Positions 41,792-55,211 of a stretch of DNA of 64,000 nt are shown here, piece after piece. How positions within the stretch are numbered: position 1 is the first letter of the stretch; each line of letters opens with the position of its first letter. The translations under genes were made by a program, and so were the position numbers. The DNA is from Chromatiales bacterium. GTDB taxonomy: Bacteria > Pseudomonadota > Gammaproteobacteria > JAGRGH01. The stretch spans positions 1 through 64,000 of the forward strand of contig JAGRGH010000049.1 in NCBI GenBank assembly GCA_020445605.1, in the 5' to 3' direction. The notes under the pieces are model-generated. The model was given only the letters and a program-made list of their open reading frames with translations, had not been told where the DNA came from and did not search any database.

Positions 41792-42265
41792 CTAGAAGGT
41801 GTTGTCAACCAGCGTCGGGGCGTTGGCCTGAGGTACATGGCACTGGGTGCAGACGTAACGCGATCCGCTCAGTTTATCGCCGGCGGTCGGTGCAAGTCCT
41901 GCGGCTGGTTTGCCATAGGCGGGCTCCGCGTAGTGGCTGGCCGGGATCGAAGTGGGCAGACCCTTTTGCTTGATACCGCGCATGTTGGGCTTGTCGTGAC
42001 AGCCCAGGCAGGCGTTCGAACCGGCCTTGACCGGCGTGAACAATGCGATGTTGTGTGGAATCTGCGGTGGCGCGGTCACGTAGGCAACGGGCAGGCGCTC
42101 GTTGGAGCCCGGAAAGCTCTGCGTATATTCCGTCGGCGGCGGGGCCGGGGCGTCACGCACGTCAGTGCGAGAAAGGCCCATGTCACTGGCGGAGATCGCC
42201 TGACCGGCCTGGGTGGCAGGAACCATGAACCAGGCCGCGGCGAGAATCATCAGGTAACGTTTCAT
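41792..42265 (-). CDS. napB: Periplasmic nitrate reductase dihaem subunit NapB
   Basis: The 157-residue exported cytochrome c hands electrons to NapA. A signal peptide (cleavage near TQA-G, residue 20) precedes two haem motifs, CLGCH (86-90) and CTQCH (139-143). PHxI and SHY histidines around them are typical distal ligands. It overlaps napH by ATGA. Confidence 0.95.
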   Translation of the reverse strand: MKRYLMILAAAWFMVPATQAGQAISASDMGLSRTDVRDAPAPPPTEYTQSFPGSNERLPVAYVTAPPQIPHNIALFTPVKAGSNACLGCHDKPNMRGIKQKGLPTSIPASHYAEPAYGKPAAGLAPTAGDKLSGSRYVCTQCHVPQANAPTLVDNTF

Positions 42266-43203
42266 GCGGTTTTCCTCCGGTGGTCTTGTGTTTGTGTTGC
42301 CTGCCGATTGTGCTGATCAATCAGCCAGCGCAGATCGTACGAAAGGGTGTCTTCCGGGCACACGCTGATGCATTGCCCGCAGTTCGTGCATTCGCCCGAG
42401 GTGATTCGTCCGGCCGCGGCTGCCTGCTTCAGGTTCAGCACCTGCGGTTCCGGGCAAACCTTCGCGCACTCGCCACAGTGCGTGCAGGTCGGTGGGTCGA
42501 AGCGCACGCGCACCGGCGCGAACGACCCGACCAGGGCGTAGAACGCCCCGAGCGGACACAGGTGCCCGCACCATCCATGCCGCAGCACGAACAGGTCGAA
42601 CAGGAACACGCCGAGTACAGCCGTCCAGCCCAGTCCGATGCCGAAGATCAACTCGCGATGCAGCATGCTGATCGGGCTGATCCACTCGAATGCCGCGATG
42701 CCCGTAAGCGCGCTGAGGACCAGCGTCAGGGCGAGCGCGATGTAACGCACGCCGCGCCGAACCGACAGCGCGTCGCGCAGGCCGAGCTTTTTGCGCAACC
42801 AGCCCGCGGCATCTGTGACCGGGTTGATCGGGCAAACCCATGCGCACCAAGTGCGGCCGCCAAGCGCCGCATACAGCGCGAAGATGATCGCGGCGCCGAT
42901 CAACACCTCGCGTGCCGGCCAGTGTCCCGTGAGGATGATCTGCAATACCGCGAATGGATCGGCCATGGGCAGCGCATCCAGCAGCTTCGAACTGCTCAGG
43001 TTGCCGAGCAGCACGGGGTGCCCGGCGATCTCCCAACCCCAGCGCGCCGTGCCTATGAACAACACCAGCACGGTGATCTGCACGAGACGACGTGCGATCA
43101 GGTAACGCCACACGCGGAGTTTTCCGGTCAGGCTTGCCGGCATGACAAACGGACGCACCGGACGCCCGTTCGGGCCGATGCGGGGCACGTTCGGTGGTGT
43201 CAC
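42262..43203 (-). CDS. napH: Quinol dehydrogenase membrane subunit NapH
   Basis: The 313-residue membrane FeS protein oxidises quinol with NapG and supplies NapA-NapB, replacing NapC, which is absent here. Four TM helices are visible, with CxxxCP motifs (WCAWVCP and WCGHLCP) and two C-terminal 4Fe-4S sites (CTHCGECAKVCP, CTNCGQCISVCP). The start is a GTG overlapping the napG stop. Confidence 0.94.
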   Translation of the reverse strand: MTPPNVPRIGPNGRPVRPFVMPASLTGKLRVWRYLIARRLVQITVLVLFIGTARWGWEIAGHPVLLGNLSSSKLLDALPMADPFAVLQIILTGHWPAREVLIGAAIIFALYAALGGRTWCAWVCPINPVTDAAGWLRKKLGLRDALSVRRGVRYIALALTLVLSALTGIAAFEWISPISMLHRELIFGIGLGWTAVLGVFLFDLFVLRHGWCGHLCPLGAFYALVGSFAPVRVRFDPPTCTHCGECAKVCPEPQVLNLKQAAAAGRITSGECTNCGQCISVCPEDTLSYDLRWLIDQHNRQATQTQDHRRKTA

Positions 43204-43955
43204 AGGGGGTTCGCATTGAGATAGTCGAGTCCGCCCGGCGATTCCCCAGTCGGCGCGGGTGTCCGGTCGGCGGGTACGAATTCCTGGGTGATTTCGTTGT
43301 CGATTTTCCAGCCCAGCCGATAGTGTTCACCGATCCGGCCCTGGACCAGGTCGGCCTGCACGACACGGATTGCGGCGAGTTCGGTGGGGCAGGCCTTTTC
43401 GCAGATACCGCAGCCGGTGCAGGCGTTTGAATGCACGATGGGTACGAACATGCCGTGCTTGGAAAGCTTGCGTGGCTGGTTCTCGATCGTGATTGCCGTG
43501 CCCTTCAACGGGCATTCCCTGTAACAGACTTCGCAGCGCAGACCCTGCCAGGACAGGCAGCTCTCGATGTCGATTGCCGCGAGCCCCATGCGGGATGCCT
43601 CGATCGAGTCCAGCTCGGGATTCAGCGCACCGGTCGGGCAGGCCGCCTTGCACGGGATGTCCTCGCACATGTAGCAGGGCACGTCACGGGGCGTGAAATA
43701 CGGCGTGCCGATCGGGATGCCTTCGCCGGCCGCTGAGAGTCTCAGCGTGTCATACGGACAGGCGCGCACGCACTGTCCGCATTTGATGCACTTGGCGTTG
43801 AAGTCGTCTTCTGCGAGTGCGCCCGGTGGACGGATGGCAAACGGCGTTGCACGCGCCTCGTTCTTCAGCAGGAACGACCAGACCAGACCGGCCGTGGCGG
43901 CAAGCGCAGTCCCTTGCGCCGCTTTCGCCAGAAATTCACGCCGTGTACTTGCCAT
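43200..43955 (-). CDS. napG: Ferredoxin-type periplasmic protein NapG
   Basis: The 251-residue Tat-exported FeS protein has the twin-arginine signal TRREFLAKAA and four cluster motifs: CIKCGQCVRACP, CYMCEDIPCKAACP, CEVCYRECP and CTGCGICEKACP. With NapH it forms the quinol dehydrogenase module. It lies 28 bases after napA. Confidence 0.95.
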   Translation of the reverse strand: MASTRREFLAKAAQGTALAATAGLVWSFLLKNEARATPFAIRPPGALAEDDFNAKCIKCGQCVRACPYDTLRLSAAGEGIPIGTPYFTPRDVPCYMCEDIPCKAACPTGALNPELDSIEASRMGLAAIDIESCLSWQGLRCEVCYRECPLKGTAITIENQPRKLSKHGMFVPIVHSNACTGCGICEKACPTELAAIRVVQADLVQGRIGEHYRLGWKIDNEITQEFVPADRTPAPTGESPGGLDYLNANPL

Positions 43956-43983: not shown

Positions 43984-46722
43984 TCAGGCCTTGTAGACCT
44001 TCACGGCACATTTCTTGAAATCCGTTTCCTTGGACATCGGGCAGGTCGCGTCCAGCGTGACCTTGTTGATGAACACACCCTCGTCGAACCACGGTACGAA
44101 GATCGAACCACGTGGCATCGTGTTTCGACCCTGGGTCTCCACACGTGCCTGTATCTTGCCGCGGCGCGATTCGACCCAGGCCAGATCGTTGCGTGCCAGG
44201 CCGAGCTTTTCGGCATCTTTCGGGTGCATGAAGATCTGCGCGGCCGGAACGGCACGGTGTAGCTCCGGAACACGTCGTGTCATCGTTCCGGAATGCCAGT
44301 GCTCCAGTACCCGACCGGTTGCGAGCCAGAACGGATAGTTTTCGTCCGGGCGCTCGACCGGCGCCGCGTAGGGCCGGAAGAAGATCTTGGCCTTGCCGGC
44401 AAGCGAGGTCTTCTCCTTGTTCGTGACGCCATCCAGGTCGCCGCTCGGCAGCGCCTTCAGCGCCTTGCCGTAGAACTCGATATCGCCATTCTTGACGTAG
44501 GGATCGTACTTCGCGTTGAAGCGGATCTGCGTCTCCTTGCCGTCGACGACCGGCCACTTCAGGCCACGCACATCGTCGCGCATATAGGTGTCGAACTCGG
44601 CCAGATCATGCGCATGTCCGCGACCGAAGCTGGCATATTCCTCGAACATCGCCTTTTCCGGGAACCAGCCATCGCCAAGCCAGTTTGCCGTGCTGTTGTC
44701 ATGGCCCTTCGCGACCGGGTCTGGCCAGGGGAATTTTTTCTTCAGCTCTTTGCGCGCGAACAAGACGTCGTACAAGTTGTCGTCCGGCGAGTAACCCATC
44801 TTTTTCGCCTCGGCCATGATGTCTGGCAGCTTGCCGTCTTCGAAGCCGGCCTCTTTCAGGCCAGGTATCGGAGACTCGCCCCAGACTTCCTTCAGCTTGA
44901 AGCGCTTGGAGAACTCCATGACCTGCCAGACGTCGTTACGCGCGTCGCCGGGCGAGGGCACCTGTTCGCGCCAGCCCTGGGTGCGCCGCTCGGCATTCCC
45001 GTAAAGACCCCATTTCTCGAAGATCATCGAGGTCGGCAGGATCAGGTCTGCCACCTTCGCCGAGATCCCGGGATACGGATCAGAGCAGACGATGAAGTTG
45101 TCCATGTCGCGCGCACCGGTGATCCAGTGGTTCGCGTTGGCCGTCGCCTGGAACGGATTGTTGACCTGCACCCAGGCGAACTTGACCGTGCCGTCCTCGA
45201 GATCGCGAAGGATCTTGGTGATGTGACTGCCGACCTTCGGGTTCACGGTCTTCGCCGGCACATTCCAGGTCTTCTCGGCAAAGGCGCGGTGATCGGCATT
45301 CGTCACGACCATGTCGGCCGGCAGACGGTGGGCAAACGTGCCCACTTCCCGCGCGGTACCGCAGGCCGAGGGCTGTCCGGTCAGCGAGAACGCGCCACTG
45401 CCGGGCTGGCATTGCTTGCCCGTCAGCAGATGGTTCATGTAGGCCTGTTCGTTGACCCAGCTGCCGCGCTGGTGCTGGTTGAATCCCATGGTCCAGAACG
45501 ACACGAGCTTGCGGTCCGGGTCGGCATAGTAGTCGGCCAGCTGTTTCAGCTTTTCCTTGAACTGCTCCATGGGTTCGTCCGGATCGCCCTTGGCGACCTC
45601 GGCGACGAAGTCCAGGGTGTACGGTTCAAGACCACGCTTGAATTCCTCGAAGCTGATCAGCCAGTGCTTGACCGGGGCTTTGGTGTTCTTCTGCTCGACG
45701 ACCTCACCCTCGGTGCGACGTTGGGCAATGGCTTCGTGTTTGGTCAGCGTGTGGCGGATTTCATTGGCCTGGGTGTCTTTCTCGGCGTCATAGGCGAACT
45801 TGTCGGTCGCACGCATGCCGTAGCCGATGTCGTATGGCCCGGTCGCGAATACGCAGTGCTTGTCGACGAAATCCTGATTGACCGCGCCGCGCTTGACGAT
45901 CTCACGCGCGATGTAGTTCTGGATCGCAAGATCGCCACTCGGGGCGAAGATGATCTCGAGATCGGCCATGTCCGAGGACATGTTGCGGTAGGTCGACAGG
46001 TTCACGATCTTCATCTTGTCGTGACCAAGGCGCCGATCGGCAATGCGTGCCCAAAGAATCGGGTGCATCTCCGCCATGTTCGCGCCCCAGAGGACCGCGG
46101 TATCGGTGTGTTCGATGTCGTCGTAGTTGCCGGCCGGCTCATCAATGCCAAAGGTCTGGATGAACGCGACCACGGCCGAGGCCATGCAGTGGCGTGCGTT
46201 CGGGTCGATGTTGTTCGAACGCAGCCCGGCTTTCATGAACTTCGCCGAGGTATAGCCTTCGGGAATGGTGTACTGGCCAGAGCCGATGATTGCGACACCA
46301 TGCGGGCCTTTTTCCTTGAGTGCGGCCTTGCACTGCTTTTCCATTTCGTCGAAGGCGCGTTCCCAGCTGACGGGCCCGAACTTGCCCTTCTTGTCGAACT
46401 TGCCGTTGGTCATGCGCAGCAGGGGCTGGGTCAGGCGATCCTTGCCGTAGAGGATCTTGCCGTTGAAATAGCCCTTGATGCAGTTGAGCCCGCGGTTGAC
46501 CGGCGCGTCCGGATCACCCTTGGTCGCGACGATCTTGCCGTCCTTGGTGGCGATCTGGATGCCGCAGCCGGTTCCACAGAACCGGCACACGCCCTTGTCC
46601 CACTGCCAGCCGGCTTCGGCGTCGGCAGCCGCAGCAACCGGAGCGGCGACGGGGATGCCTACAGTGGCTGCGGTCGTGGCGGCGATCGAGGATTTGATGA
46701 AATCGCGACGGGATACGGACAT
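43984..46722 (-). CDS. napA: Periplasmic nitrate reductase catalytic subunit, long form
   Basis: This Mo-bis-MGD enzyme reduces nitrate to nitrite in the periplasm. A Tat signal (SRRDFIKS) is followed by the 4Fe-4S site C46, C49, C53 and C81. The probable molybdenum ligand is C179 ([10 protein letters not shown]). At 912 residues it is about 80 longer than the E. coli enzyme; inserted segments around [16 protein letters not shown] and near [18 protein letters not shown] recall the longer epsilonproteobacterial NapA. The C-terminal [21 protein letters not shown] is typical. It follows napD by 68 bases and is transcribed leftward with napG-H-B-F. Confidence 0.97.
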
Positions 46723-46790: not shown

Positions 46791-47111
46791 TTAGTCATTC
46801 AGGGCTGCGGGTACGGCACGCGAATCGAAACCGGTCTCGGTGTCGAGGTCGGAGGGATTCGCGTTGATGACCGGCGACTCTTCGTCAAAACGGTGATAGA
46901 CGAGTTCGGCATAGACCACATGGGGCAGGGACTTGATGGCGCGCAGGGTCGCGACTTCGCTGCCCGTGTTGGCGGCCTCGATGGTCGCGACCAGGCGCGA
47001 ACTCTGCGTATCCACCTGGTGGACATCCACGCCGTCGATCGACGTCAGCGAGTCGATCACGGCTTCCAAGCGCCCGGAAGCGCTCTGCACGACGATGCCT
47101 GAAATGTTCAC
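46791..47111 (-). CDS. napD: NapD, Tat-signal chaperone for NapA
   Basis: This small cytoplasmic protein of about 106 residues binds the NapA signal peptide until the cofactor is inserted. The start chosen is the GTG at 47111, giving [20 protein letters not shown], the canonical beginning, with GAGG about nine bases upstream. The longer open frame (to 47276) overlaps the promoter described at 47217-47258 and is rejected. The acidic C-terminus extends about 25 residues beyond the ferredoxin-like fold. Confidence 0.88.
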
Positions 47112-47216
47112 TCCGTCCTCGCTTTTACTTGTTGAGGCGCTGATGCGCTCTGCGTCCGCAGTTTCAGCCTGCCCGGGCGGGGTTGGGCGTTGCGCAGGCA
47201 CAGCTGGTCTCGAGAC

Positions 47217-47258
47217 ATAGTAGGCGGCTGCGGGCAGAGCGTCCTTGACGTGCGTCAA
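47217..47258 (-). promoter_or_regulatory. FNR/DNR-type class II promoter of the nap operon
   Basis: On the minus strand, TTGAC-N4-GTCAA lies at 47245-47258 with a TACTAT -10 hexamer at 47217-47222. The implied start point is 47210, which puts the box centre exactly at -41.5, the standard position for FNR-class activators. The leader to the napD start is about 99 bases. Confidence 0.8.
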
Positions 47259-47520
47259 GTCAGTGCACCGAATCAATGACCGGGATCATGTGAAGAGCCG
47301 GAAGCACCGGAGTTGGGCGCGTTATCTGGGCATATTCGAAAATACTGATCGCACTTTTTCGCGCTTGAAGCGCCGATCCGGCTCGGTCTGCCCCGAGCGG
47401 CCGGCGCGCGACGGCGGGGCCGTGTGCGGCGGCGAAAAGAAAAAAATCCTGCTACAGCGGCCGGTTGCGCACACCGGCCCCCAATCTGTCCACAGTTTGT
47501 CCGTAGGACAATTCTCTAAA

Positions 47521-47679: not shown

Positions 47680-49842
47680 ATGAGCACACTGCGCGCTGAC
47701 GACCTGAAGAACCGCGTCCACAAGCCTGCCGAGATCGGCATGCAGGCCGCCTCACAGGACATCTGGGACAAGAAGTACCGCCTCAAGACCAAAACTGGTG
47801 AGGTGCTCGATCAGGACATCGACGCGACCTACCGGCGCATCGCAACCGCGCTGGCCGAATGCGAGTCCACGCCGGCCCTGCGCAAGCACTGGGCCGAGCG
47901 CTTCGTCTGGGCGCTGCGCCATGGCGCGATCCCGGCCGGGCGCATTGTTTCGAACGCCGGCGCGCAGGCGCACAAGCCGGCGACCTCGACGATCAACTGC
48001 ACGGTCTCGGGCACGATCCGCGACTCCATGGACGACATCCTCGGCAAGGTCCACGAGGCCGGGCTGACGCTCAAGGGCGGCTCCGGCATCGGCTACGAGT
48101 TCTCGACCCTGCGACCGAAGGGCGCGTACGTCTCGGGCGCCGGGGCCTATACCTCCGGCCCGCTGTCGTTCATGGACATCTACGACAAGATGTGTTTCAC
48201 CGTGTCGTCGGCCGGCGGGCGGCGCGGCGCGCAGATGGCGACCTTCGATGTCGGGCATCCGGACGTCATGGATTTCATTCGAGCCAAGCGCGAGAACGGC
48301 CGCCTGCGGCAATTCAACCTGAGCCTTTTGATCACCGAGCCGTTCATGCAGGCCGTGCAGGACGACGCGGACTGGGCGCTGGCGTTTCCGCTCGACCAGC
48401 GCGAGCAGCAGGAATCGCCGATCGACCTGAACGATGCCGAGATCGTGATCTGGCGCGACTGGCCCAGCACGCAGGGCTATGTCAGCAACGAAGTCGGTCA
48501 GGTCGCCTGCAAGGTCTACCGGCGCATCCGCGCGCGGCGCCTGTGGGACATGATCATGAGTTCCACCTACGATTTTGCCGAACCGGGCTTCATCCTGATC
48601 GACAAGGTCAACGACGAGAACAACAACTGGTTCTGCGAGAACATCCGCGCGACCAATCCCTGTGGCGAACAGCCGCTGCCGCCGTATGGCGCATGTCTGC
48701 TGGGCTCGGTGAACTTGACGCGCTTCGTGCGCGATCCGTTCACGAAAAATGCGCGCTTCGACTGGGATGAGTTCCGCGAGGTGGTCGCGGTGTTCACGCG
48801 CATGCTCGACAACGTCGTCGAGATCAACGGCCTGCCGCTCGACAAGCAGCGCGCCGAGATCATCCGCAAGCGTCGCCACGGCATGGGTTTTCTCGGTCTG
48901 GGGTCGACGCTGACCCTGCTGCGCATGAAGTACGGAACGGCACCGGCCGTGCGCTTCACCGAGGATGTGACCCGTGAACTGGCCGTCACCGGCTGGAAGG
49001 TCGCGCTGGAACTGGCGAAGGAGAAGGGCGCCGCGCCGATCATGAGCGAGGAGTTCGAGGTGACCGAGTCCATGCTCGCGCACCGGCCCGAAATGCGCCG
49101 TGACGGTTTCCGCGTCGGCGAGCGTGTGCCGGGTCGCGTGCTGCATGCGCGCTACAGCCGCTACATGCAGCGCCTGGCCGAGGTCGAGCCGGAGCTGGTC
49201 GAGGCGCTTGCAAGCGAGGGCGCTCGCTTCACGCACCACAGCTCGATCGCGCCGACCGGCACGATCTCGCTGTCGCTTGCGAACAATGCCTCGAACGGCA
49301 TTGAACCCTCGTTTGCACATCATTATTCGCGCAATGTGATCCGCGAGGGCCGCAAGACCAAGGAGAAGGTCGACGTGTATTCCTACGAGCTGCTGGCCTA
49401 TCGCGAACTCGTCGACCCGCAGGCATACCCGGATGCCGAGGACGACGCCCACCGGCTGCCGGAATACTTCATCGCGGCCGACGACATCACGCCGCGCGCG
49501 CATGTCGACATCCAGGCCGCCGCGCAGAAGTGGATCGATTCATCGATCTCCAAGACCGCGAACGTGCCGACGGATTATCCGTTCGAGGATTTCAAGGATA
49601 TCTATCTGTACGCCTATGAGAGCGGGCTCAAGGGCTGCACGACCTTCCGCTTCAATCCGGAGGCGTTCCAGGGCGTGCTGGTCAAGGAGAAGGATCTCGA
49701 AAACACGACCTACGAATTCAAGCTCAAGGACGGCACGACCGTCCGGGCGCGGGGCAACGAAATGATCGAGTACGACGGCGAAGAACACACCGCGGCGAAT
49801 CTGTTCGACGCGTTGAAAGAAGGCTACTACGGCAAGTTCTGA
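47680..49842 (+). CDS. nrdJ: Adenosylcobalamin-dependent (class II) ribonucleotide reductase, NrdJa part
   Basis: This catalytic part of 720 residues reduces ribonucleotides to deoxyribonucleotides independent of oxygen. Visible motifs are TSTINCTVSGTI with a redox cysteine, the catalytic loop NPCGEQPLPPYGACLLGSVN with C-x-E, and HHSSIAPTGTISLSLANN. It ends without the C-terminal TSCPD/zinc module, which is encoded by the next gene 40 bases downstream, as in the split Pseudomonas enzyme. NrdR boxes control the promoter. B12-dependence suits a facultative anaerobe. Confidence 0.95.
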   Translation: MSTLRADDLKNRVHKPAEIGMQAASQDIWDKKYRLKTKTGEVLDQDIDATYRRIATALAECESTPALRKHWAERFVWALRHGAIPAGRIVSNAGAQAHKPATSTINCTVSGTIRDSMDDILGKVHEAGLTLKGGSGIGYEFSTLRPKGAYVSGAGAYTSGPLSFMDIYDKMCFTVSSAGGRRGAQMATFDVGHPDVMDFIRAKRENGRLRQFNLSLLITEPFMQAVQDDADWALAFPLDQREQQESPIDLNDAEIVIWRDWPSTQGYVSNEVGQVACKVYRRIRARRLWDMIMSSTYDFAEPGFILIDKVNDENNNWFCENIRATNPCGEQPLPPYGACLLGSVNLTRFVRDPFTKNARFDWDEFREVVAVFTRMLDNVVEINGLPLDKQRAEIIRKRRHGMGFLGLGSTLTLLRMKYGTAPAVRFTEDVTRELAVTGWKVALELAKEKGAAPIMSEEFEVTESMLAHRPEMRRDGFRVGERVPGRVLHARYSRYMQRLAEVEPELVEALASEGARFTHHSSIAPTGTISLSLANNASNGIEPSFAHHYSRNVIREGRKTKEKVDVYSYELLAYRELVDPQAYPDAEDDAHRLPEYFIAADDITPRAHVDIQAAAQKWIDSSISKTANVPTDYPFEDFKDIYLYAYESGLKGCTTFRFNPEAFQGVLVKEKDLENTTYEFKLKDGTTVRARGNEMIEYDGEEHTAANLFDALKEGYYGKF

Positions 49843-49882
49843 TCCGTCACCAGCGGGGCAATCCGCAAGAGGGCAAACGAAC

Positions 49883-50569
49883 ATGAGCATCAAGATCGAG
49901 CAGAAGATCGTCGACTACGGTGTGGTTCGCGACGAACCGCAGGCCCCGGCTGCGCCGAAGGAGGAGCGCCCGCGCGCCGACGTGATCCAGATGAATGAGC
50001 GTCTGGAGCGTCCGGAGCGACTCGAGGGCACGACCTACAAGGTCAAGACGCCGAACTCCGAACACGCGATGTACATCACAATCAACGACATCGTGCTGAA
50101 CGAGGACACGCCGCACGAACACCGCCGGCCGTTCGAGATCTTCATCAACTCGAAAAACATGGACCACTTCCAGTGGATCGTGGCCCTGACGCGCATCATG
50201 TCGGCGGTGTTCCGCAAGGGTGGTGACGTGACCTTCCTGGTCGAGGAACTTCGCAGCGTGTTCGATCCGCACGGCGGTTATTTCAAGAAGGGTGGCCGCT
50301 TTGTGCCGTCCGTGATCGCCGAGATCGGCGACATCATCGAATGCCATCTGAAGAAGATCGGCATGATCGTGGAATGCGATCTCGAGACCGGACAGAAGGA
50401 GCTGATCCGGAAGGCGCGGGAAAAGGCCGGGCTGGACTCTGCACCCGGGGCGGAGGATACCGGTTATCCCGACAGCGCGACGGTGTGTCGCAAGTGCTCG
50501 ACCAAGGCCGTGGTGATGCTCGACGGCTGCATGACCTGTCTGAGCTGCGGCGACTCCAAGTGCGGCTGA
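49883..50569 (+). CDS. Class II ribonucleotide reductase, NrdJb part
   Basis: The 228-residue protein carries the C-terminal half of the class II enzyme. It begins with a charged linker, then a TSCPD-like domain (YKVKTPNSEHAMYITINDI, FEIFINSKN, ECHLKKIGMIVECDL) and ends in a zinc-ribbon-like CRKCSTKAVVMLDGCMTCLSC. In Pseudomonas the corresponding subunit NrdJb is needed for activity. It lacks its own promoter signal and is followed by a terminator hairpin at 50701. Confidence 0.88.
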   Translation: MSIKIEQKIVDYGVVRDEPQAPAAPKEERPRADVIQMNERLERPERLEGTTYKVKTPNSEHAMYITINDIVLNEDTPHEHRRPFEIFINSKNMDHFQWIVALTRIMSAVFRKGGDVTFLVEELRSVFDPHGGYFKKGGRFVPSVIAEIGDIIECHLKKIGMIVECDLETGQKELIRKAREKAGLDSAPGAEDTGYPDSATVCRKCSTKAVVMLDGCMTCLSCGDSKCG

Positions 50570-50874: not shown

Positions 50875-50916
50875 TTGATCGTCGTCAAGGATTGCAATCT
50901 GCACCCTGCGTATTAA
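50875..50916 (+). promoter_or_regulatory. FNR/DNR-type class II promoter of the octahaem cytochrome gene
   Basis: TTGATCGTCGTCAA at 50875-50888 is a full FNR/DNR-type box. A TATTAA -10 hexamer lies at 50911-50916, which implies a start at 50923 and places the box centre at exactly -41.5. The rest of the 523-base gap (50570-51092) holds the terminator at 50701 and a second box at 50978. The leader to the ATG at 51093 is about 170 bases. Confidence 0.8.
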
Positions 50917-50977
50917 TGTGCGCGGGATCCAGTAAACCGGCATAACTGATTGATTTAGATTAATTAGAAACACCTAA

Positions 50978-51092: not shown

Positions 51093-52598
51093 ATGACAAC
51101 TCGCCGCCGAGACTCCCGGATTTTGAGTCCGTGGAGCATTGTTTTCACAGCATTGCTGTGTTTGGGCTCAACCACCGCGAATGCCGCGCGCCCCTCGGGG
51201 AAGATCGGCGTCGACTGGGGTGACCCCAAGGGCCAGCAGTGCGTTGACTGCCATCGCTCGGTCACGCCGGGCCTCACCATGGAGTGGAACAACAGCCAGC
51301 ATGGACAGCTGGGCGTCAACTGTCTCGACTGCCACAAGGCGGAAGACGGCGACAAGGACGGCTTCGCCCATGCCGGACAGAAGGTTTCGGTCATCGTTTC
51401 GCCGAAGGACTGCTCGCGTTGCCACAGCACCGAGTTCGAGGAGATGGACGGATCGCATCACTCGCATGCGGGTCGCATCCTGGCGTCGCTGGACAACCTG
51501 CTCGGTGAAGTCATCGGTGGTCCGGCTGCGGTGCATGTAGGCTGCCGTCAGTGTCACGGCGCGGTGGTCGAGATCGGCGCCGATGGCAAGCCGACCGCCG
51601 ACACTTGGCCAAACACCGGCATCGGCCGCAAGAACCCGGACGGCAGCGAGGGTTCCTGCACGGCCTGTCACACGCGGCACCGCTTCTCCAAGATGCAGGC
51701 GCGTACGCCGGATACCTGTGGCAAGTGCCACGTCGGACCGGATCATCCGCAGATCGAGGTTTACAACGAATCCAAGCACGGCATCCTGTATCGCGCGTTC
51801 AAGGACGAGCTGAACATGACGTCGGACAAGTGGGTTGCGGGCGTGGATTACTCCGCGGCGCCGACCTGTGCGTCCTGCCACATGAGTGCCGGCGGCAGCG
51901 AGGGCAAGACCCACAACGTCGGAGACCGCATCTCCTGGACGCTGCGTCCGCCGGTATCCAAGAAGTTGAACATGGTCCGGCTCGACAACGGTCAGGAAAA
52001 GGACATCCCGGGTGACAATCCGGAACTGCCGGCGATCGGCTCATCGCCGGATTGGGCGAATGGTGCGAAGGTCGTCGAGGTGCTGACTTGGCAGCAACGC
52101 CGCGACAAGATGAAGCAGGTCTGCCGTGCGTGTCATACCTCGAGTGTCGTGGAAGGGCATTACCTGCAGTTCGACAACCTGGTGGAACTTTACAACGAGA
52201 AGTTCGCCAAGCCCATTGCCGCGATCATGGGTGAACTCAAGGAGAAGGGTTACATCACCAAGAGTCCGTTCGACGAGAAGATCGAGTGGGTCTGGTGGGA
52301 GATCTGGCACCACGAGGGCCGTCGTGCTCGCCACGGTGCTTCGATGAACGGTCCGGACTATGCCTGGTGGCACGGCATCTACGATGTCGCGAAAAACACC
52401 TACTTCGAGTGGATTCCGGAGCTCAAGGAAGTCGCCCACAAGAAGGACGGCAACGAGCACTTCGCCGAGGCGATGCTCGAGAAGTACTTCAAACCCATCG
52501 AGGGGCATGACTGGTACTTCAACGGCATGAGCAAGGATCAGCTCGACAAGGTTCGCAAGGGCTTTGAAGCCCGCTACGGCAAGGGTTCCCTGAAGTAG
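51093..52598 (+). CDS. Octahaem hydroxylamine oxidoreductase-like multihaem cytochrome c
   Basis: This 501-residue exported protein has a signal peptide (cleavage near NAA, residue 31) and eight CXXCH sites starting at C50, C77, C107, C151, C189, C209, C259 and C344. Number, spacing and the C-terminal helical region (HHEGRRARHGASMNGPDY) match the HAO family, which oxidises hydroxylamine or hydrazine or, in some Epsilonproteobacteria, reduces nitrite. Y423 in GPDYAWWHG is a candidate for the tyrosine that crosslinks the P460 haem in true oxidases, but I cannot confirm alignment. The leader carries FNR-type boxes, suggesting anaerobic use. It precedes a TPR gene and fccAB on the same strand. 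Confidence 0.88.
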   Translation: MTTRRRDSRILSPWSIVFTALLCLGSTTANAARPSGKIGVDWGDPKGQQCVDCHRSVTPGLTMEWNNSQHGQLGVNCLDCHKAEDGDKDGFAHAGQKVSVIVSPKDCSRCHSTEFEEMDGSHHSHAGRILASLDNLLGEVIGGPAAVHVGCRQCHGAVVEIGADGKPTADTWPNTGIGRKNPDGSEGSCTACHTRHRFSKMQARTPDTCGKCHVGPDHPQIEVYNESKHGILYRAFKDELNMTSDKWVAGVDYSAAPTCASCHMSAGGSEGKTHNVGDRISWTLRPPVSKKLNMVRLDNGQEKDIPGDNPELPAIGSSPDWANGAKVVEVLTWQQRRDKMKQVCRACHTSSVVEGHYLQFDNLVELYNEKFAKPIAAIMGELKEKGYITKSPFDEKIEWVWWEIWHHEGRRARHGASMNGPDYAWWHGIYDVAKNTYFEWIPELKEVAHKKDGNEHFAEAMLEKYFKPIEGHDWYFNGMSKDQLDKVRKGFEARYGKGSLK

Positions 52599-52614
52599 CA
52601 TCCTGAGTTGCATT

Positions 52615-52638
52615 GGGCCGGATCAAGCGATCCGGCCC
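52615..52638 (+). terminator. Perfect hairpin between octahaem and TPR genes
   Basis: A 10-bp perfect stem (GGGCCGGATC and its complement) with the loop AAGC lies 17 bases after the octahaem stop. No T-run follows, so it is more likely an mRNA-stabilising or processing element than a true terminator. Confidence 0.5.
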
Positions 52639-52703
52639 GATGCCGTCCGGCCCCGGTCGCGGTGTCTGTGCCGCGGCGGGGCATTCCAAGCAGGAGTCCC
52701 CCA

Positions 52704-53198
52704 ATGCGACATTTCAATGCCGCCAGTCTTTTTTTCTGCCTGATGCTGGCGTTTTCGGCGAGTGCCCCGGCGGCGGCATCCGCGGAAGATTCCGAATCGT
52801 TGCTCAAACAGGGCGAGGCGCTGTCGGCCGAAGGTCGCTTTGCCGATGCGCTGGAGTACTTCAAACGAGCCACCGCCGCCAATCCGAAGTCATCCGTCGC
52901 ATTCTTCCGCCAGGGCGGCATGGAGATTGCGTTGCAGCGCTACGATGACAGCATTCAGAGCTTTCAGAACGCGGTCGAACTGGACTCCAGTCTCGGCCCC
53001 GCATTCCTGGGCATGGCGATCGCCTTGATCCATACCGGTCGTTATGACACGGCCCGACTCGCGCTCGACGAGGCGTTGCAGCGTTCGCCGCAGCGCGCAG
53101 CGGAGATCGAACACGTCAAGGCCTGGCTGAGTCAACGTTCCGACGGCGAGTCGCTTGGGCACAGCGAGCGCCCGATGGCATTCATGCCGCAACACTAA
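52704..53198 (+). CDS. Exported TPR-repeat protein
   Basis: The 164-residue protein starts at 52704 with AGGAG eight bases upstream. A signal peptide (cleavage near ASAED, residue 27) precedes about three tetratricopeptide repeats (ESLLKQGEALSAEGRFADAL, then AFFRQGGMEIALQRYDDSIQ). A periplasmic scaffold or maturation factor for the cytochromes on either side is plausible because of the position between them; this is an inference. Confidence 0.8.
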   Translation: MRHFNAASLFFCLMLAFSASAPAAASAEDSESLLKQGEALSAEGRFADALEYFKRATAANPKSSVAFFRQGGMEIALQRYDDSIQSFQNAVELDSSLGPAFLGMAIALIHTGRYDTARLALDEALQRSPQRAAEIEHVKAWLSQRSDGESLGHSERPMAFMPQH

Positions 53199-53257
53199 CC
53201 ACCAGAACAATGCTGCGTCGCCAGACGAGTGGCGCAGCCGACGAGGAGGAGATTTCG

Positions 53258-53851
53258 ATGAGACTGAGACTCAAGATCACGGCAGCGGCGCTCCTGGCGG
53301 GCGCGCTGCTCCAGGCGACTGGGTCGATCGCAAGCGATCCGCGATCGGCCGAGATGCTGGCGCGTACCTGCGCCGGTTGTCACGGAACGGATGGCGTAAG
53401 CAGCGGGATTGCAAATCCTTCCATTGCCGGCCTGAACGGCGAGTACCTGAACAAGGCGATGGACGAGTTTGCCAAGGATACCCGCCCGTCGACCATCATG
53501 GGCCGCATTGCCCGCGGTTACAGCGAGCTGGAAATCAAGGCGATTGCCGACTATTTTGCCGCGCGGCCGTGGGTGTCTTCCAGCGCTTCTACAAAACCGG
53601 CGCTGGTCGAGAAGGGGCGCGGACTGCATGAACGGTCCTGCGCAACCTGCCATACCGACGGTGGTCGTGGCGGGCCGGGTGCGACACCGCGCATGGCCGG
53701 GCAATGGCCGGCCTATCTGTATATGCAGATGCGCGATATGCACGATCCCGGGTATCTAGGTCCGTCGCCGCTGCTGATGCGCCAGCTGATCCAGCAGCTC
53801 AGCGACGACGATTTGCATGCGCTCGCGCACTACTACGCAAGCCAGAAGTAG
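53258..53851 (+). CDS. Dihaem cytochrome c, FccA-like subunit of flavocytochrome c
   Basis: The 197-residue exported cytochrome has a signal peptide (cleavage near IAS, residue 26) and two class I haem sites CAGCH (38-42) and CATCH (128-132), each with a following Met-containing segment. Such a c4-like dihaem protein is the partner of the sulfide-oxidising flavoprotein FccB, which lies 12 bases downstream. The start ATG at 53258 has GAGGAG upstream; the longer frame lacks a signal. A stand-alone c4 role cannot be excluded. Confidence 0.85.
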   Translation: MRLRLKITAAALLAGALLQATGSIASDPRSAEMLARTCAGCHGTDGVSSGIANPSIAGLNGEYLNKAMDEFAKDTRPSTIMGRIARGYSELEIKAIADYFAARPWVSSSASTKPALVEKGRGLHERSCATCHTDGGRGGPGATPRMAGQWPAYLYMQMRDMHDPGYLGPSPLLMRQLIQQLSDDDLHALAHYYASQK

Positions 53852-53863
53852 AGGAGTCCGATC

Positions 53864-55144
53864 ATGTCCAAGCTTTCACGTAGGGATTTTGTCCGGATCC
53901 TCGGCGCCTCCTCGGCACTCGGGCTGCTCGGCGCCTCCGGCATGGCCCGTTCGGCGGGCACCAAGGCCCGTGTGGTGGTGATCGGCGGTGGCTACGGTGG
54001 CACCATCGCGGCGAAATACATCGCGATGTCGGATCCAGGCATCCGTGTCACGCTGATCGAGAAGGACTCGCAGTTCGTCTCGTGCCCGCTCAGCAACGAG
54101 GTGCTGAGCGGCGATCGCACCATCGGGTCGCTGACGTTCGGCTACCACGGCCTCACTGGGCATGGCGTCAACGTCATGCAGGACGAGATCATCGATATCG
54201 ACGCCGCAAACAAGTATGCACGCGGCAAGTCCGGTAATCGTTACAACTACGACATGCTGGTTGTCTCGCCGGGCGTGGATTTCAAATGGGGTGCGATCAA
54301 GGGCTACGACGAGGCGGCATCGCAACACATGCCGCACGCCTGGAAGGCCGGCGAGCAGACCCTGCTGCTGCGGCGTCAGCTCGAAGCGATGCGTGATGGC
54401 GGCACGTTTTTCATCGTCGCGCCGCCGAATCCGTTCCGATGCCCACCGGGGCCGTACGAGCGTGCCGCGCAGGCCGCCCACTATTTCAAGCATCACAAGC
54501 CGAAATCCAAGGTCGTCATCCTGGATCCGAAGGACAAGTTCTCCAAGCAGGGCCTGTTCACGGCCGGCTGGAAGGCCAACTACGGCGACATGATCGAGTG
54601 GGTGTCCGGTGCCGCGGGTGGCATCGTCGAGGAGGTCAGGCCGGGTTCGATGAAGATCATCGGCCAGGTCGACGAGCACACCGGCGATGTCGTCAACGTG
54701 ATTCCACCGCAGCGTGCGGGCGCCATTGCACAGAAGGCCGGCCTGACCAACGACAGTGGCTGGTGTCCGGTCGATCAGCGCAGTTTCGAGTCATCCATCC
54801 ACAAGGACATCTATGTGATTGGCGATTCCTGCATCGCCGGTGCCATGCCCAAATCCGGCTATGCGGCGAACTCGCAGGGCAAGGTTGTCGCGGCCAACGT
54901 TGTGGCCAAGGTCAACGGTCGCTCTGCTTCGGAGCCGTCCTACGTCAACACCTGCTACAGCGTGATCGCGCCGGATTACGGCATATCGGTCGCGGCCGTT
55001 TATCAGCTCGGCGAGAACGGGATTGTTGGGGTCAAGGGCGCCGGCGGATTGTCACCGGGCCAGGCCAGCGCCCGGACCCGCGCCGACGAGGTCATGTACG
55101 CCTACGGCTGGTATCAGAACATTACGTCCGACATGTTCTCCTGA
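53864..55144 (+). CDS. fccB: Flavocytochrome c sulfide dehydrogenase, flavoprotein subunit
   Basis: This 426-residue periplasmic flavoprotein oxidises sulfide to sulfur or polysulfide. A Tat signal (SRRDFVRIL) is followed by the FAD-binding GGGYGG and C74 in FVSCPLSNEV, equivalent to the cysteine that binds FAD covalently in Allochromatium. The redox-active cysteine pair is C193 (PFRCPPGPYE) and C364 (VNTCYSVIAP). It completes the fccAB pair and is followed by a strong terminator at 55174. Confidence 0.93.
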   Translation: MSKLSRRDFVRILGASSALGLLGASGMARSAGTKARVVVIGGGYGGTIAAKYIAMSDPGIRVTLIEKDSQFVSCPLSNEVLSGDRTIGSLTFGYHGLTGHGVNVMQDEIIDIDAANKYARGKSGNRYNYDMLVVSPGVDFKWGAIKGYDEAASQHMPHAWKAGEQTLLLRRQLEAMRDGGTFFIVAPPNPFRCPPGPYERAAQAAHYFKHHKPKSKVVILDPKDKFSKQGLFTAGWKANYGDMIEWVSGAAGGIVEEVRPGSMKIIGQVDEHTGDVVNVIPPQRAGAIAQKAGLTNDSGWCPVDQRSFESSIHKDIYVIGDSCIAGAMPKSGYAANSQGKVVAANVVAKVNGRSASEPSYVNTCYSVIAPDYGISVAAVYQLGENGIVGVKGAGGLSPGQASARTRADEVMYAYGWYQNITSDMFS

Positions 55145-55173
55145 ATACCCATAAATCCCCCCTGGGTGATTGT

Positions 55174-55211
55174 CGCGGCACCTCTCGGGGTGCCGCGAAT
55201 CGTTTTGTTCC
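55174..55211 (+). terminator. Intrinsic terminator after fccB
   Basis: CGCGGCACC and GGTGCCGCG form a 9-bp stem with a 6-base loop, followed by AATCGTTTTG. It lies 29 bases past the fccB stop. Confidence 0.8.

Follow-up and report, generated by a model that had tools for sequence, protein, structure and literature searches.

Does a sulfide dehydrogenase supply electrons to a nitrogen-oxide-reducing octahaem cytochrome in the periplasm of sulfur bacteria? The question is raised by four consecutive genes of a Chromatiales bacterium, located in a stretch of 64,000 nucleotides (contig JAGRGH010000049.1, positions 1 to 64,000) that was analysed as a whole and is called the window. The genes encode an octahaem cytochrome of the hydroxylamine oxidoreductase (HAO) family, termed OCC, an exported tetratricopeptide repeat (TPR) protein, and FccA and FccB, the two subunits of a flavocytochrome c sulfide dehydrogenase (FCSD). 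The pairing of OCC with FccAB is found again in many sulfur bacteria and seemingly has several origins; the two therefore probably work together, connecting the oxidation of sulfide with the reduction of nitrogen oxides on the outer side of the inner membrane. Octahaems of the reductive HAO type are common among sulfur bacteria, and a recurrent link to a sulfide dehydrogenase points to a specific electron donor, so that the role of the octahaem becomes testable.

The octahaem cytochrome and the flavocytochrome

The four genes are all encoded on the plus strand. The OCC gene (51093-52598) specifies 501 residues with eight CXXCH motifs and a PF13447 domain. It is followed by the TPR gene (52704-53198), whose start was placed at ATG 52704 and not at a TTG further upstream, by fccA (53258-53851), which encodes a dihaem cytochrome c subunit with two CXXCH motifs and 3vrd_A and 1fcd_C as top PDB matches, and by fccB (53864-55144), which encodes a flavoprotein subunit with FCSD Pfam domains. 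The gaps from stop to next start are 105, 59, and 12 bp. A terminator scan detected no terminator-like hairpin in these gaps and one hairpin 3′ of the cassette (55173-55198, plus strand). The open reading frames (ORFs), domains, and hairpin scan thus agree with the preliminary description in coordinates, gene content, single strand, short gaps, and a terminator only at the end. A chance layout is excluded, as the order OCC-TPR-FccA-FccB is found again in many other genomes. The N-termini read from the sequence comprise a signal peptide in the TPR protein, Sec-type termini in OCC and FccA, and a Tat-type terminus in FccB; OCC, FccA, and FccB are therefore expected in the periplasm.

OCC contains eight c-type haems in an HAO-type fold, as indicated by the motifs, the Pfam domain, and Foldseek matches of its predicted structure (single chain, mean pLDDT 81.5) to HAO structures. 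The nearest solved structure by both sequence and Foldseek is IhOCC (4qo5), followed by a reducing HAO-like complex (6h5l) and oxidising HAOs. In the alignment, the position of the cross-linking Tyr467 of HAO corresponds to Trp426, which is present without exception in the close relatives (78/78) and in the more distant ones (17/17). Met418, eight residues ahead of Trp426, is invariant in the same two sets, whereas nitrifier HAO has a histidine there. Tyrosine occupies the cross-linking position in all four HAO references and in none of the 95 OCC-type sequences. The reference L170 is a true nitrifier HAO (E=0 to 1fgj), and its tyrosine maps to mature position ~467. The active-site Asp-His of HAO is retained in all 78 subfamily members. 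A tryptophan in place of the tyrosine together with a methionine eight residues before is the signature of epsilon-Hao, and Tyr-less HAOs are reductive (PMC8940962); the missing cross-linking tyrosine has also been described as a mark of reductive HAOs (PMC12758564). Judged by these residues, OCC is grouped with the Tyr-less HAO-like octahaems of reductive signature. This signature, along with the surroundings of its relatives, which are those of nitrate and nitrite metabolism, favours the earlier assignment of OCC as an HAO-family octahaem of nitrogen-oxide type.

Other assignments were rejected. A nitrifier-type oxidative HAO is ruled out by the replacement of Tyr467 with tryptophan. Membership of OTR is ruled out by the absence of TIGR04315 from the NCBIfam matches of OCC; this model does match a gene neighbouring a distant OCC in locus L050. 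ONR/TVNIR and NrfA are ruled out because all eight motifs are CXXCH, with no CXXCK and no match to an NrfA model.

The closest solved relatives of FccB are 5n1t, 1fcd, and 3vrd. At the positions of the FAD-binding cysteine and the redox cysteine pair of FCSD, cysteines occur in 57/57 FccBs. The protein therefore has the FCSD flavin domain, the FAD-binding cysteine, the redox pair, and the dihaem partner of a flavocytochrome c sulfide dehydrogenase, and it resembles the Allochromatium vinosum enzyme (1fcd) in pairing FccB with a dihaem FccA and in retaining all key cysteines. In FCSD, FccB oxidises sulfide and hands the electrons to FccA, and FccAB reduces cytochrome c. To our knowledge, the classical enzyme has not been described with an octahaem partner gene. 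The window's genome carries three further FccB genes elsewhere. FccAB is also present without OCC at loci L191, L193, L194, L205, and L210, where a four-haem protein of 180-200 residues is encoded directly before fccA.

Recurrence of the pairing across genomes

A scan of GTDB genomes yielded 273 stretches encoding an OCC relative, of which the best 80 (59-77% identity) were examined. The hosts among these 80 are Chromatiaceae, Thiodiazotropha and other lucinid symbionts, Thiothrix, Marithrix, Thiomargarita, Betaproteobacteria (Rhodoferax, Sulfuritalea, Parasulfuritortus, and others), Magnetococcales, and Nitrospirales. Together with the window and a small number of additional loci, the best relatives make up a single subfamily of 78 members (SH-aLRT 94).

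FccB is located within 10 kb of OCC at 26 of the 58 loci with enough flank, a set that also counts near-identical genomes and a number of mid-group loci. The linked FccB lies downstream on the same strand in 17 cases, divergently upstream in seven, and upstream on the same strand in two, and the spacing between OCC and FccAB is 0.2-1.4 kb in most of them. Chance linkage is estimated at ~0.4-2.5% per locus, assuming 1-5 FccB copies in 4-5 Mb. At the genome level, FccB is present in 40/51 OCC genomes and 87/274 genomes of a class sample, figures that are uncorrected for phylogeny.

The linkage changes nine times on the tree. The linked FccBs belong to separate lineages, namely a clade of 22 rows that includes the window (SH-aLRT 94), a Marithrix/Thiomargarita lineage, and a Parasulfuritortus/Gallionellaceae lineage. 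In a tree set enriched for OCC-linked copies, a single clade of all linked FccBs is rejected by the AU test (p=0.0017; p=0.0011 without the Parasulfuritortus/Gallionellaceae lineage). The window FccB clade is not exclusively octahaem-linked, as window-type FccBs also lie distant from OCC in some carriers. Two cases fall outside the subfamily: in genome G061, a window-type FccAB adjoins a different HAO-like octahaem (L077; 26% identical), and in genome G152, fccAB-soxY is found upstream of a mid-group OCC (L064). HAO-type octahaem genes thus seem to have become linked to FccAB on more than one occasion, involving different FccB lineages. The neighbourhood is conserved: both the TPR gene and FccAB recur beside OCC across relatives, the latter from several lineages and in three geometries.

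In Candidatus Marithrix (L139:11482-12666, L141), OCC-TPR is followed by soxY and soxZ, and fccAB is placed divergently upstream. A soxY gene is likewise found near OCC in Thiothrix. In Beggiatoaceae (L249:8377-10194, L248, L225-L228), single genomes encode several octahaem paralogues, among them a longer form of ~606-623 residues.

Four Nitrospirales OCCs (L119, L126, L132, L133) are 69-71% identical to the window OCC and nest within the mostly gammaproteobacterial subfamily. Directly downstream of each is a gene for a NapC/NirT tetrahaem protein; no NapC/NrfH-type gene is present beside the window OCC. No FccB was found in the Nitrospirales OCC genomes. The nested position and the adjoining NapC-type gene suggest lateral transfer and donor exchange.

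The TPR gene adjoins OCC in ~60 of 82 loci. It is also present beside OCC in Marithrix, where it is too divergent for the 82-locus search, and is absent at the four Nitrospirales loci. The preliminary description had suggested that the TPR protein could hold the complex together. A role as linker of OCC and FccAB is less likely, because the TPR gene accompanies OCC at most loci that lack FccAB; the protein is better regarded as a partner of OCC. Binding of the TPR protein to the OCC C-terminus was considered and rejected: the C-terminal tail (consensus RYGKGSLK) shows the same conservation in the TPR-less Nitrospirales OCCs and is therefore a clade marker that lends no support to such binding. 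The TPR protein may be a dedicated assembly or docking factor of OCC.

A proposed route from sulfide to nitrogen oxides and its alternatives

We give even chances to the proposal that the cassette is a periplasmic module transferring electrons from sulfide to nitrogen oxides, with a Tyr-less reductive octahaem, FccAB as its sulfide-linked donor, and anoxic control. FccB would oxidise sulfide at its FAD/disulfide site and pass the electrons to FccA, which would reduce OCC directly or via a soluble cytochrome c. OCC, as an enzyme of the epsilon-Hao/IhOCC type, would reduce nitrite, or hydroxylamine or nitric oxide, probably towards ammonium. This direction and substrate are suggested by the signature residues, the gene context, and characterised relatives; the Tyr-less HAOs characterised so far reduce nitrite. 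The donor would be exchangeable around a conserved octahaem, since Nitrospirales carry a NapC-type quinol dehydrogenase as the OCC neighbour in place of FccAB. If the proposal is true, purple sulfur bacteria, lucinid symbionts, Thiothrix, and large sulfur bacteria would join sulfide oxidation and nitrite reduction through a short chain in the periplasm, with a bearing on the retention or loss of fixed nitrogen in sulfidic habitats. A stronger version, in which FccAB and the octahaem form a dedicated complex, a sulfide:nitrite oxidoreductase in which the oxidation of sulfide is coupled to the ammonification of nitrite independently of the quinone pool and which evolved repeatedly with FccAB and NapC swapped as donors, is tentative and somewhat unlikely.

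The gene context of OCC is related to nitrogen oxides. Genes of the nap cluster occur close to OCC not only in the window but also in Thiocystis, Halochromatium, Lamprobacter, several Comamonadaceae and Rhodocyclaceae, and an uncultured proteobacterium. Between OCC-TPR and napAGH of Thiocystis violacea lie genes for a NarX/NarQ-type sensor kinase and a NarL-type regulator. NapA scores above cut-off in 28/50 OCC genomes and 50/274 genomes of the class sample, again uncorrected for phylogeny, and a true NrfA is present in just 2/51 OCC genomes.

An FNR/DNR-type regulator probably activates transcription of the cassette when oxygen is absent. Upstream of the window OCC are an FNR/DNR-type box, TTGATCGTCGTCAA (50875-50888, plus strand), and a second FNR-like box read from the sequence, TTGATTTAGATTAA (50950-50963, plus strand), each with one mismatch to TTGATN4ATCAA. 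Perfect boxes precede OCC in 24/76 subfamily members; with up to one mismatch allowed, the count rises to 50/76. Resampled sequences would give ~0.1 perfect boxes and ~1.6 with at most one mismatch over all 93 regions; random 360-bp segments of the same loci contain them at 0.9% and 3.8%, respectively. A Crp/FNR gene is present at 16/82 OCC loci.

Several observations weigh against the proposed route. No FccB was found at the threshold used in 11/51 OCC genomes, and 32/58 loci have no FccB within 10 kb. The enrichment of NapA and FccB is confounded by phylogeny, and the 58 loci contain near-identical genomes. NapA is not found above cut-off in 22/50 OCC genomes (no search for NarG was made), so the cells may not produce nitrite themselves. 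A NirS-type nitrite reductase is encoded in the window's genome, so OCC would not be the sole nitrite reductase there, and Hcp is missing from this genome. For ammonia oxidisers, the proposed direction of a NapC-family protein is towards quinone, and NapC is thus no proof of direction. The orange octahaem BOGUAY_0691 of Guaymas Beggiatoaceae reduced nitrite slowly (0.31 U/mg for the native preparation, <=0.014 for the recombinant protein; PMC6449678).

The loci without a nearby FccB, together with the window-type FccBs located elsewhere in the genome in some carriers, are also consistent with co-regulation without direct coupling. OCC and FccAB would then be two anoxic enzymes encoded in a single redox island, in many cases alongside nap and ccm, and each would trade electrons with the general cytochrome c pool. 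Genes of the ccm cluster also group near OCC, at ~14 loci. Against this reading, OCC is linked repeatedly to different FccB lineages, in three geometries and mostly at the short spacing described above, and FccAB is linked once to a different octahaem, at L077. Co-regulation alone is considered unlikely.

The proposal also has to be weighed against a sulfur substrate. OCC may act with FccAB, and in some lineages with SoxYZ, on tetrathionate, sulfite, polysulfide, or carrier-bound sulfur, nitrite turnover being a side reaction. Its carriers are mainly sulfur oxidisers, purple sulfur bacteria included, and some of the latter are among the 22 genomes without NapA above cut-off. The soxYZ genes after OCC-TPR in Marithrix and the soxY genes near OCC in Thiothrix and G152 point the same way, and a different octahaem of the orange Beggiatoaceae reduces both tetrathionate and nitrite (PMC6449678). 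However, the OTR model TIGR04315 gives no match to OCC, in which the HAO Asp-His and the epsilon-Hao signature are retained. In addition, nap, NarX/NarL, the FNR boxes, and NapC indicate nitrogen oxides, and the four Nitrospirales possess a closely similar OCC in genomes where FccB was not found. A sulfur enzyme is quite unlikely on this evidence.

A forward HAO, in which OCC oxidises hydroxylamine (or hydrazine) to nitric oxide or nitrite and passes the electrons to cytochrome c, is very improbable: OCC belongs to the HAO family and the native orange octahaem oxidised hydroxylamine and hydrazine in vitro (PMC6449678), but the cross-linking tyrosine is missing in 95/95 sequences and the sulfide dehydrogenase partner would be left without a reason.

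Related systems and neighbouring genes

Known systems share parts of the cassette. The epsilon-Hao of Campylobacterota (Nautilia, Campylobacter) is, like OCC, a Tyr-less HAO-family octahaem with the tryptophan and methionine signature and an association with Nap, and it is the proposed nitrite reductase of the reverse-HURM pathway in Nautilia (PMC3701875). In that system, a NapC/NrfH-type quinol dehydrogenase serves as the donor and Hcp finishes the reaction, whereas the window contains TPR and FccAB; the full Nautilia-type pathway is excluded in the window's genome by the missing Hcp. By its published description, BOGUAY_0691 is an octahaem of ~500 residues in the same broad group as OCC, from a sulfide oxidiser, with napAB upstream. 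It is a nitrite reductase and a hydroxylamine and hydrazine oxidase in vitro, and its physiological role was left open (PMC6449678). A neighbouring FccAB or TPR was not reported for it, unlike for the window OCC.

IhOCC of Ignicoccus hospitalis, the best structural match, is ~26% identical to OCC and has Asp-Val in place of the active-site Asp-His. We know of no Fcc partner of IhOCC. In the Kuenenia HAOr complex (kustc0457/0458, 6h5l), a reductive HAO-like octahaem without the tyrosine likewise has a distinct cytochrome as partner (PMC12485887), but its identity to OCC is ~19%, the partner protein is another one, and the setting is anammox. No description of the OCC-FccAB pairing was found in the literature searched, most subscription papers being beyond reach, which is weak evidence of novelty. 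The octahaem type is already known, and the pairing with FccAB, whose coupling we infer, may be the new element.

Some more distant OCCs adjoin a NapC-type protein and OTR. In another group, ~45-49% identical to OCC (L053:6898-10223, L061, L062, L071), the neighbours are a nine-haem cytochrome-cytochrome b561 fusion and/or a 'marine subtype' ammonium transporter, and the locus looks like a quinol-linked, ammonium-related module. Both sets of neighbours would fit ammonium formation.

In the window, a nap/moa cluster (napD, napA, two ferredoxin-type nap genes, moaA, moaB, and moeA) is situated 4-12 kb upstream of the cassette on the opposite strand, and two Crp/FNR regulator genes lie beyond it. 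This cluster, the FNR-type boxes, the three further FccB genes, and NirS are additions to the preliminary description. The minus strand encodes napD (46791-47276; PF03927), napA for the periplasmic nitrate reductase (43984-46722; TIGR01706 above cut-off), and napG and napH-like ferredoxin genes (42262-43955), the last named by order and Fer4 domains. The window NapA has 912 residues, compared with 830 positions in the family model, and comparably long NapAs are found in several other genomes. An adenosylcobalamin-dependent ribonucleotide reductase (47680-50569) is split into a catalytic ORF (47680-49842) and a separate TSCPD-domain ORF (49883-50569).

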